Assembly: GCA_031278115.1 (NCBI GenBank)
Contig: JAITKZ010000091.1
Coordinates: 1-8,904, forward strand
Reading direction: 5' to 3'
DNA length: 8,904 nucleotides
Origin: Endomicrobium sp.
Lineage (GTDB): Bacteria > Elusimicrobiota > Endomicrobiia > Endomicrobiales > Endomicrobiaceae
Position 1 is the stretch's first letter. Every line of letters begins with the position of its first letter. The notes beneath the pieces were generated by a model. The model was not told where the DNA came from. It ran no database searches and was given only the letters and a program-made list of their open reading frames with translations. The position numbers were made by a program, and so were the translations under genes. Shown in pieces: positions 7,070-8,809 of the stretch.

Positions 7070-7665
7070 TTAGACTTGCAATTTTAGCTTCCGGTGGTGG
7101 CTCTAATATGCAGGCTATAGTAGATGCGTATAAGTTTGGCATATTAAAAGGTTTGGCTGAAGTAGTTTTGGTGATTTCAAACAATACAAATGCCTTTGTT
7201 TTAGAAAGATCAAAAAAAGAAAATATAAAATCTGTTTGTATAGAAAGAAAGAGTTTTAAAGATGATGAATCTTTTAACAAAAAGGTTCTTGTTGAACTTC
7301 AAGCCGCAAATGCTGACTTAGTCTGCCTTGCCGGCTATATGAGAATGATAGATAAAGAAATATTGAAAGTTTACAATGGAAGAATTTTAAACATTCACCC
7401 TGCTCTTCTTCCAAAATTTGGCGGCAAGGGCATGTATGGGCATTTTGTTCAAGAGGCTGTTGTAAAAGCAGGGGAAAAAAAGTCTGGAGCAACTGTACAT
7501 TTTGCAAATGAAGAATATGATTGTGGTAGAATAATTCTGCAGAAAGAAGTGGAAGTTTTCAAGAGTGATACTCCTGAAGATGTGGCAAGAAAAGTTTTAG
7601 AAGTAGAGCATAAAATATATCCTCAGGCAATTAAAAAAGTTATAGAAGAAAATTTAAGAGGTTAA
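7066..7665 (+). CDS. purN: Phosphoribosylglycinamide formyltransferase (GAR transformylase)
   Basis: The 199-residue product uses 10-formyl-tetrahydrofolate to formylate GAR, the third step of purine synthesis. ILASGGGSNMQAI (6-18) binds phosphate. VCLAGYMRMI (86-95) and NIHPALLPKF (109-118) follow, the latter with N109 and H111. D152, in EEYDCG (149-154), completes the catalytic set known from the E. coli enzyme. The start is coupled to the purM stop (ATGA). The last 19 codons, stop codon included, are repeated about 1.14 kb downstream just before purB. The original gene is thus followed by an inserted nuclease cassette rather than directly by purB. The protein itself looks complete. Confidence 0.95.
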   Translation: MIRLAILASGGGSNMQAIVDAYKFGILKGLAEVVLVISNNTNAFVLERSKKENIKSVCIERKSFKDDESFNKKVLVELQAANADLVCLAGYMRMIDKEILKVYNGRILNIHPALLPKFGGKGMYGHFVQEAVVKAGEKKSGATVHFANEEYDCGRIILQKEVEVFKSDTPEDVARKVLEVEHKIYPQAIKKVIEENLRG

Positions 7666-7666
7666 A
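7607..7666 (+). repeat. 60-bp direct repeat, copy A (3' end of purN)
   Basis: This is the end of the purN coding sequence plus one base after the stop. It matches 8750-8809 at 57 of 60 positions with no gaps. The differences are T/C at the fourteenth base, T/A at the seventeenth and A/G at the thirty-sixth. In the purN frame the first two are silent (Tyr, Pro) and the third is Ile to Val. It marks the left edge of the DUF1016 cassette. Confidence 0.95.
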
Positions 7667-7687
7667 TGGTCATAAGGATAATATAAT

Positions 7688-7692
7688 AGAGG
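7688..7692 (+). promoter_or_regulatory. Ribosome-binding site for the DUF1016 gene
   Basis: AGAGG lies six bases before the GTG at 7699. An in-frame ATG at 7720 lacks such a site, so the GTG is the preferred start. The sequence lies within the inserted cassette, which therefore brought its own initiation signal. Confidence 0.55.
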
Positions 7693-7698
7693 TATTTA

Positions 7699-8703
7699 GT
7701 GAAACTTACCAATAATAAGATGTACAATCAACTTATCAATAATATTACAAATTTAGTTCAAAGAGCAAAGGAAAATGCTTTTAAAGCTATGAATAATGAA
7801 TTGATAAAAGCAAATTGGGAAATCGGAAGATATATTGTTGAATACGAACAGAAGGGTAAAGAAAAAGCAGTTTACGGAAGTTCTTTGTTATCAAAAATTT
7901 CAAAAGATTTGAAATATAAAAATGGTAATGGTTTTAGTAAAAGTTCAATATATTTATGCAGACAGTTCTATATTAAATACCCAATTTTCCAGACACTGTC
8001 TGGAAAATTAAGTTGGAGCCATTATTCAGAACTTTTAACGGTATCCGACGATTTAGCAAGGTCTTTTTATGAGAAGCAGTCAATAAAAGAAAATTGGAGT
8101 TTCAGAGAATTAAAAAGACAGATAAAAACAGCTTTGTTTCAACGATTAGCGTTAAGCAAAGATAAAAAGGGAGTGTTGGCTCTTGCAAACAAAGGGCAAG
8201 AAATAGCAAGTCCAAAAGATACCATCAAAGATCCGTATATTTTTGAATTTTATGAATTACCAAAAGGGCAAATTATTAAAGAAAGAACTTTGGAAAGGAA
8301 ATTGATTGATAATTTGCAGAAATTTCTATTAGAATTAGGCAATGGCTTCTCTTTTGTTGCAAGGCAACACAAAATTACAATAGATAACGAGCATTATTAC
8401 ATTGATTTAGTTTTTTATCGCAGAATATTAAAATGTTTTGTTCTTATTGACTTAAAATCTTCAAAAGTTAAACACCAAGATATCGGGCAAATGAATCTGT
8501 ATTTGAATTACTTTAAGGATGAAGAAAATGTTGAAGGTGATAATGATCCAATAGGAATCATTATAACCGCTGATAAAAATGAATTTCTTGTAAAATATGC
8601 TACAGGCGGACTTTCAAATAAAATTTTTGTTTCAAAATATCAGTTATATTTACCTGATAAGAAATTATTAGAAAACAAAGTAAAAGAAATATTAAATGAT
8701 TAA
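7699..8703 (+). CDS. DUF1016/YhcG-type PD-(D/E)XK nuclease
   Basis: The product has 334 residues, full length for the family. The N-terminal DUF1016 domain (about 10-155) contains NWEIGRYIVEYE (39-50), CRQFY (87-91) and LSWSHYSELL (104-113) and is predicted helical and possibly DNA-binding. The C-terminal nuclease domain (about 175-334) carries D236 in YYIDLVFY, D251-x-K253 in VLIDLKSSK and Q264 in IGQMNLYLNYF. This is a PD-(D/E)XK active site with the IDLK variant often seen in this family. Such proteins often lie near restriction or other defence genes, but their biological target is not settled. The gene is a lone insertion between purN and purB with flanking purN-tail repeats, which indicates horizontal arrival. 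All motifs are intact, so it may be functional. Residues 96-104 are encoded by a perfect palindrome. Confidence 0.9.
   Translation: MKLTNNKMYNQLINNITNLVQRAKENAFKAMNNELIKANWEIGRYIVEYEQKGKEKAVYGSSLLSKISKDLKYKNGNGFSKSSIYLCRQFYIKYPIFQTLSGKLSWSHYSELLTVSDDLARSFYEKQSIKENWSFRELKRQIKTALFQRLALSKDKKGVLALANKGQEIASPKDTIKDPYIFEFYELPKGQIIKERTLERKLIDNLQKFLLELGNGFSFVARQHKITIDNEHYYIDLVFYRRILKCFVLIDLKSSKVKHQDIGQMNLYLNYFKDEENVEGDNDPIGIIITADKNEFLVKYATGGLSNKIFVSKYQLYLPDKKLLENKVKEILND
7983..8009. repeat. 27-bp perfect palindrome inside the DUF1016 coding sequence
   Basis: Two 13-base arms (7983-7995 and 7997-8009) are exact reverse complements around a single central C at 7996. The core is TTTTCCAGACA facing TGTCTGGAAAA. 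It is read in frame as IFQTLSGKL. A second copy lies just after the stop codon of the same gene. Confidence 0.9.
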
Positions 8704-8705
8704 AA

Positions 8706-8732
8706 AATTTTCTAGATATTGTCTGGAAAATT
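8706..8732. repeat. Second copy of the 27-bp palindrome, 3 bases after the nuclease stop
   Basis: It is identical to 7983-8009 at 24 of 27 positions; all three differences are C to T (8713, 8717 and 8719). Two of these turn arm pairs into G-T pairs, so an RNA hairpin would still form. Only TTT follows the stem, so it is a weak candidate for a transcription terminator. Confidence 0.8.
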
Positions 8733-8749
8733 TAAAAATATAAGAATAA

Positions 8750-8809
8750 AGCATAAAATATACCCACAGGCAATTAAAAAAGTTGTAGAAGAAAATTTAA
8801 GAGGTTAAA
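8750..8809 (+). repeat. 60-bp direct repeat, copy B (second purN tail, before purB)
   Basis: This is an untranslated copy of the purN end, matching 7607-7666 at 57 of 60 positions. In the purN frame it still reads HKIYPQAIKKVVEENLRG followed by a stop. No purN body precedes it; the sequence to its left is cassette DNA. It supplies the Shine-Dalgarno for purB. Confidence 0.95.
8799..8804 (+). promoter_or_regulatory. Ribosome-binding site for purB, inside the purN-tail repeat
   Basis: AAGAGG lies six bases before ATG 8811. It is part of the duplicated purN tail, so the duplication preserved purB's initiation signal. Confidence 0.65.

Follow-up and report, generated by a model that had tools for sequence, protein, structure and literature searches.

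Restriction-modification genes reportedly insert with long target duplication, as is said of the cases of Nobusato (2000) and of Furuta and colleagues. A comparable arrangement is found in a stretch of 8,904 nucleotides of Endomicrobium sp. (contig JAITKZ010000091.1; the whole stretch is here called the window), in which a single nuclease gene of the DUF1016/YhcG family (PF06250, COG4804) stands between purN and purB and is flanked by two 60-bp copies of the purN tail. The likeness lies in a nuclease gene at a site that is empty in relatives and in a long, variable target duplication (60 bp here, 94 bp at a second locus), and the first-pass annotation of the window was right to place the locus among insertions of this type. 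In contrast to those insertions, there is one nuclease gene without a methyltransferase, the 1083-bp insert containing a single DUF1016 open reading frame (ORF) rather than a methyltransferase and restriction enzyme pair; the duplications are located at gene 3' ends, and the gene contains a palindrome within its coding sequence.

Insertion sequences, as summarised in PMC3031569, duplicate 4-10 bp of their target, which is far less than the duplications at the two DUF1016 loci. Rickettsia palindromic elements are described in PMC4316617 as being about 100-150 nt long and as inserting in intergenic regions, RNAs and coding genes; the DUF1016 palindrome resembles them as palindromic DNA inside coding genes that leaves the frame unbroken, but differs in being 27 bp long and in being largely confined to a single homologous codon in one family. 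The DUF1016/YhcG family itself is credited, in the part of PMC1189080 that deals with it, with no obvious conserved neighbours and no confident N-terminal fold. We put at slightly better than even the chance that a DUF1016 unit with palindromic sites was inserted at purN by long target duplication and that the palindromes are candidate binding sites of its own protein. The locus offers a clean case with empty sites, in which a lone candidate-defence nuclease is associated with a long target duplication and with neither a transposase nor a methyltransferase.

Insertion of a DUF1016 gene at the 3' end of purN

The features of the locus are as follows.

7066..7665, plus strand: purN (phosphoribosylglycinamide formyltransferase), intact, 199 amino acids (PF00551, 1.5e-52; ORF)
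7607..7666, plus strand: direct repeat copy 1, the final 59 nt of purN including the stop codon, and 1 nt (repeat comparison)
7667..8749, no strand: inserted segment, 1083 bp, missing in empty-site relatives (locus comparison)
7699..8703, plus strand: DUF1016/YhcG PD-(D/E)XK nuclease gene, 334 amino acids, GTG start (PF06250, 8e-58; PF17761, 9.7e-41; PADLOC PDC-S02, 1.4e-134)
7741..8145, plus strand: DUF1016_N domain, amino acids 15-149, modelled fold ParB/Noc-like (Pfam; structure model)
7983..8009, no strand: perfect 27-bp palindrome AATT-TTCCAGA-CACTG-TCTGGAA-AATT inside the DUF1016 gene, coding (I)FQTLSGK(L)
8218..8679, plus strand: YhcG_C PD-(D/E)XK nuclease domain, amino acids 174-327 (Pfam; homology)
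8706..8732, no strand: second palindrome, its arms almost identical to those of the first, with 11/13 pairs, immediately 3' of the stop codon (palindrome scan)
8750..8809, plus strand: direct repeat copy 2, the purN tail with the purB ribosome-binding site (repeat comparison)
8811..8904, plus strand: 5' end of purB, open to the window end (start ATG at 8811)

The two copies of the purN tail, whose starts are 1143 bp apart and which are separated by 1083 bp, agree at 57 of 60 positions, while the best 60-mer match to copy 1 obtained by chance (200 shuffles of the downstream 1.2 kb in two-base blocks) was 36/60. The first-pass annotation had described this duplication, two intact neighbours and one DUF1016 gene without a recombinase, and all of this holds: the purN ORF is whole, the purB ribosome-binding site (AGAGG) is located within copy 2, the DUF1016 gene is the sole ORF of at least 60 amino acids in the segment, and the window contains no recombinase ORF. 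Since the gene end is included in the duplication, both purN and purB remain intact. The repeat is unlikely to be an assembly artefact, as the same arrangement is found in two further genomes, with 97% identity over 1839 bp and repeats matching at 60/60 positions in the nearest genome (G001), and repeats matching at 59/60 in G024.

Comparison of the junction among relatives covered 29 in-genus loci obtained as sequence, at least four further in-genus matches without a locus being left out. The purB gene follows purN on the same strand in all 29. The distance is at most 20 bp in 14 and at most 200 bp in 26; of the other three loci, one has 390 bp and two have 1143-1145 bp with a DUF1016 gene in between. 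In the nearest empty sites (G012, G016, G006, G014, G035 and G010) the purN stop runs straight into purB. Since purB lies within 200 bp in 26 of the 29 loci, empty sites of the kind that the first-pass annotation suggested looking for do exist, and the DUF1016 segment at purN is an insertion relative to them. Its presence in G001, G024 and the window strain is most simply attributed to a single event before these split. The host bacterium lives inside termite-gut protists.

A search of 41 genomes of the genus for the DUF1016 family gave matches in 10, seven of them above the cut-off and several broken or partial. When flanking repeats were compared at 13 loci (the window, G001 and G024 at purN, and a further ten, of which L056 lacked a query match), long direct repeats surrounded DUF1016 in five: the three purN copies, G023 (94/94) and G030 (91/94). 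The repeat in the latter two consists of the last 84 nt of a 979-amino-acid UvrD-like gene, including the stop codon, and 10 nt beyond, and encloses a DUF1016 gene whose product is 41-42% identical to that of the window; G017 and G060 have an empty uvrD-like site, adjoining tRNA-Pro. A second DUF1016 gene between duplicated 3' gene ends, for which the first-pass annotation had proposed a search of the same genome, is present elsewhere in the genus, and the uvrD-like locus records the same kind of event with a 94-bp duplication. Both duplications start in the final codons of a gene and end 1 or 10 nt beyond the stop. No common ends were seen in the purN and uvrD-like inserts, and their terminal inverted repeats do not extend beyond 5-7 nt. 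These results, together with the lack of a recombinase ORF, give no support so far to the suggestion of the first-pass annotation that the gene is a self-propagating unit or rides on an unknown integrase. The insert lacks the marks of an insertion sequence or transposon, as it has no other ORF of 60 amino acids and the best inverted match of its ends is 5 nt; those of an integron cassette are likewise absent at these two loci, the repeats being purN and uvrD-like coding tails and not attC sites.

A scan for direct repeats, as pairs of at least 35 bp within 6 kb, covered 706,407 bp, roughly half of the G001 genome. The purN pair was the sole gene-tail duplication, and gene-tail duplication as a general genome habit was rejected, all other pairs being of different kinds: the 148-bp pair that brackets a Fic gene and the 40-bp pair located where a contig begins are dispersed repeats with further copies, a 35-bp match joins adjacent tandem paralogues (acyltransferase-type proteins, 54% identical), and two further pairs each lie inside a single gene.

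A different account of the duplication is that a circle or fragment carrying DUF1016 and the purN tail of a related strain recombined with the resident tail by ordinary homologous recombination, so that the original event took place elsewhere and no long staggered break was involved here. The three filled genomes are indeed close relatives, and the repeat copies are partly concerted, in that both copies of G024 share one change not seen in G001, as if exchanged or transferred. This account nevertheless only moves the problem back to another, earlier genome, the tail, length and DUF1016 gene are different at the second locus, and no other tail-only purN copy appears among the matches listed for a protein search of 59 relatives, where a diverged short tail could be missed. 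We regard recombination of this kind as unlikely.

A palindrome within the DUF1016 reading frame

The palindromes inside and directly behind the window gene were unmentioned in the first-pass annotation. An in-frame palindrome with the consensus AATT-N7-CASTG-N7'-AATT is found in many DUF1016 genes of bacteria and archaea at one homologous codon, and its sequences diverge widely between genes. In 50 of 90 distinct DUF1016 genes the best palindrome exceeded all 30 synonymous shuffles of its own gene, and 49 of these 50 fall in the region corresponding to window codons 90-112. The centre lies in the same codon phase in 70 of the 71 odd palindromes passing the score, and reads CACTG in 35 cases and CAGTG in 24, which are equivalent on the two DNA strands.

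Pairing was examined with the downstream LSWSH motif as anchor, so that sites were not chosen by pairing; among 119 genes that had not been obtained via the palindrome, 71 had the anchor and were used, and 48 were dropped. In the anchored genes 693 of 923 pairs (75%) were complementary. The proportion was 19-39% when the centre was shifted to 20 other positions, and 43% (maximum 46%) with codons redrawn synonymously; arm positions 3-9 each show two to four different standard pairs. A wider set that includes loci obtained by palindrome gave 903/1183 pairs in 91 genes. Palindromes with at least 11 of 13 pairs are present somewhere in the gene in 38 of the 48 dropped genes and in 98 of the 119 overall. 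G.T and A.C mismatches number 41 and 36 in all, and 26 and 36 without the outermost pair. The arms thus vary and yet stay complementary beyond codon constraint, without an RNA-type wobble bias. Arm identity rises from 2.3-2.7 of 7 between proteins less than 45% identical to 6.1-6.4 where protein identity exceeds 65%, a pattern that co-evolution predicts and plain descent does as well. In the listed titles and abstract openings on DUF1016, YhcG, PDC-S02, ORF6N and coding palindromes, the palindrome is undescribed.

Sites also cluster around the genes. For 150 DUF1016 genes, in a set that includes palindrome-chosen loci, palindromes of at least 11/13 number 174 in the 157 kb of the genes themselves, 76 in the 171 kb that lie up to 600 bp from a gene and 55 in 604 kb at greater distances. 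At least two sites are present in 51 of 151 genes when the flanking 600 bp are counted with the gene. A pattern scan without a pairing requirement matched at least 72 of the 340 genomes in the phylum of G001. Among 73 distinct pattern sites in the examined loci, called palindromic with 6-7 of 7 arm pairs and non-palindromic with 4 or fewer, 48 were palindromic, and 39 of these are inside a DUF1016 match or no more than 1.5 kb from one; DUF1016 is nearby at one of 18 non-palindromic sites and five of seven intermediate ones. Pairs of sites within a locus match at 6-7 of 7 arm bases in 34/122 cases, compared with 7% between loci, and the observed mean of within-locus agreement was reached in none of 500 permutations. 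The DUF1016 gene of a viral contig (L367) has two sites that share their arms but not their reading frame. A genome-wide repeat was rejected as an explanation in this genus, where six pattern sites occur in 5 of 41 genomes.

The palindrome might instead act as an mRNA hairpin, in pausing, decay or translational autocontrol, rather than as a DNA site. A coding location at a fixed codon and phase would suit such a role, and compensatory change is typical of RNA stems. However, G.T mismatches are not clearly commoner than A.C, which speaks for DNA rather than RNA pairing, the CACTG and CAGTG centres are equivalent as the two strands of DNA, copies of the palindrome also lie upstream and downstream of the genes, and the palindromes of the five sources searched against Rfam match no family, the sole match in these sources being a tRNA in L048. 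An RNA role is for these reasons distinctly improbable. The chances are slimmer still that the palindrome has no function and descends from an imperfect ancestor kept perfect by template switching in replication (quasipalindrome correction). Such correction gives compensatory changes without selection, and some genes with two palindromes do look locally copied, but the AATT ends, the CASTG centre and the fixed codon are left unexplained by it, as are the sites that have the same arms but lie outside the gene or in a different frame (L367, L095 and the window) and the fold of the encoded domain.

Palindromes are also encountered in other settings. Two stretches of partial DUF1016 keep the palindrome, L140 (G005) with 6/7 and L142 (G006) with 7/7 arm pairs. 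Palindromes of at least 11/13 lie within 600 bp upstream, instead of or besides the internal one, at L269 (three), L253 (eight) and L206 (four). Four near-identical 27-bp palindromes are found on four contigs of G174 (L197, L245, L246 and L247), a genome with no PF06250 match. On viral contigs one palindrome pattern gave three loci and a second pattern none; L365:8091 and L366:3209 have a palindrome of the window type without a DUF1016 match in the DNA examined, that of L366 at the end of a 223-amino-acid ORF.

The encoded protein and a possible mode of insertion

The window protein shares both Pfam domains of YhcG/DUF1016 proteins (PF06250, 195.2 bits; PF17761, 139.5 bits; gathering scores 32.5 and 32.8) and falls in the PADLOC candidate class PDC-S02; DUF1016 matches occur in 129 of 340 genomes of the phylum of G001. 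It also has the residues D236, D251 and K253, which are invariant among 46 DUF1016 sequences and are likely to be catalytic. ParB, Noc and KorB proteins bind palindromic sites, and the modelled N-terminal domain resembles their fold, with 93-102 residues aligned at 2.9-3.3 Å in the seven best entries; the model is mostly helical, so that chance similarity is possible. A sequence search of the PDB gave no relevant match and none to ParB, Noc or KorB, and an NCBIfam search gave no match. The protein is thus predicted, from modelling and homology respectively, to join a ParB/Noc-like DNA-binding domain to a PD-(D/E)XK nuclease domain. It differs from ParB, Noc and KorB in the attached nuclease domain, in a 27-bp candidate site with an odd centre and in the lack of a sequence match.

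A 1.08-kb unit composed of the DUF1016 gene and its palindromic sites was inserted at the 3' end of purN and duplicated 60 bp of target. The target would have been opened along a stretch of tens of base pairs, or copied in the course of break repair, as the foreign DNA was joined in; the nuclease itself is one candidate for the actor. The in-frame palindrome and the copy behind the stop codon are most likely binding sites of the DUF1016 protein, a role that we infer because of the fold, the co-variation and the clustering of sites, and would preferably serve autoregulation or placement of the nuclease. A unit carrying gene and control site together would need no flanking regulator and might settle at gene ends in operons; with both in one piece, it could land in any operon. 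Self-cleavage or homing by DUF1016 would be a further possibility.

Several observations weigh against this explanation. Only two such insertion loci were found, both within one genus, and the site rather than DUF1016 may be the common factor because the uvrD-like 3' end precedes other genes in other genomes, namely an AAA-ATPase/PDDEXK_9 gene in G005 and a CdiA_C-type ORF in G020 (L174, L176). In 80 loci of named genomes, flanking repeats score at least 30 at 8 of 88 DUF1016-related ORFs and at 5 of 435 others; two of those eight are the purN locus, one resembles an integron site, one is simple sequence and the rest look like gene arrays or like repeats that are weak or intergenic. At the two empty targets, G012 purN and G017 uvrD, there is no palindrome of at least 11/13 in the surrounding 150 bp or so, which leaves the palindrome without a link to the target; as regards a homing endonuclease, this absence bears on the palindrome and not on a cleavage site. 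No palindrome reaches the threshold in 21 of the 119 DUF1016 genes, while 9 of the 48 palindromic sites, and likewise two of the three viral loci, have no DUF1016 nearby; a neighbouring ORF compared with Pfam at six of those nine sites encodes an unrelated protein in five cases (BRO-N, DUF2971, a nucleotidyltransferase, ERCC4 and transketolase) and lacks a match in one. Within-locus arm agreement may come in part from tandem copying. Finally, the ParB match has weak Foldseek E-values (0.09 or higher), and according to the note of the comparison tool mostly helical models can attain its Z score by chance.

Inspection of the 80-locus set revealed no further clear target duplication at DUF1016 outside the genus, and because the picture is weaker there we do not claim that DUF1016 in general inserts in this way. 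Integron-type attC sites, as we take the repeats flanking the DUF1016 gene of L062 to be, would fit mobilisation of the insert, as a gene cassette or other element, through a site-specific recombinase that is absent here. Such movement has very little probability at these loci, for although DUF1016 is noted on conjugative elements in PMC4316617, the repeats differ in length and derive from the coding tails of two host genes that are unrelated, the ends are not shared, terminal inverted repeats do not exceed 5-7 nt and the window lacks a recombinase ORF.

Insertion of the unit with its own putative binding sites remains our preferred explanation, and it gives a large uncharacterised nuclease family a testable handle, in the form of a fold predicted to bind palindromes and of a palindrome within the gene that is constrained at the DNA level. 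If the protein reads the palindrome, a DNA address would be kept inside the reading frame, and the function and regulation of the family would become directly testable. A bolder and rather doubtful extension is a self-addressed nuclease, whose ParB-like domain would bind the palindrome in its own codons, protein and site co-evolving through lineage-specific 7-bp arms; gene and site together would then be a minimal selfish unit, inserting by long target duplication and able to distinguish its own locus from rival copies. If that were true, the analogous palindrome of ORF6N genes, described below, would suggest a general way for mobile DNA-binding genes to hold an address in the reading frame.

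Other observations at pyrK-pyrD and in ORF6N genes

Elsewhere in the window a DpnI-like gene (PF06044) lies between pyrK and pyrD at 1336-1722 (on to 1930); it is open for 128 amino acids and then interrupted. The window and G001 have different restriction-type genes at this junction, at which no flanking duplication was found.

Genes of the ORF6N type (L336, L337, L341, L343, L344, L356 and L359) contain an in-frame palindrome of the form TTGAGGT-N3-CAAWTTG-N3'-ACCTCAA, or close to it, before a GGRRY motif. The regular expression used did not match 21 of 30 ORF6N loci, which were left out of the test. The palindrome exceeded all 15 synonymous shuffles in seven of the nine testable genes, and in six of these seven it lies within 14 codons before the GG.
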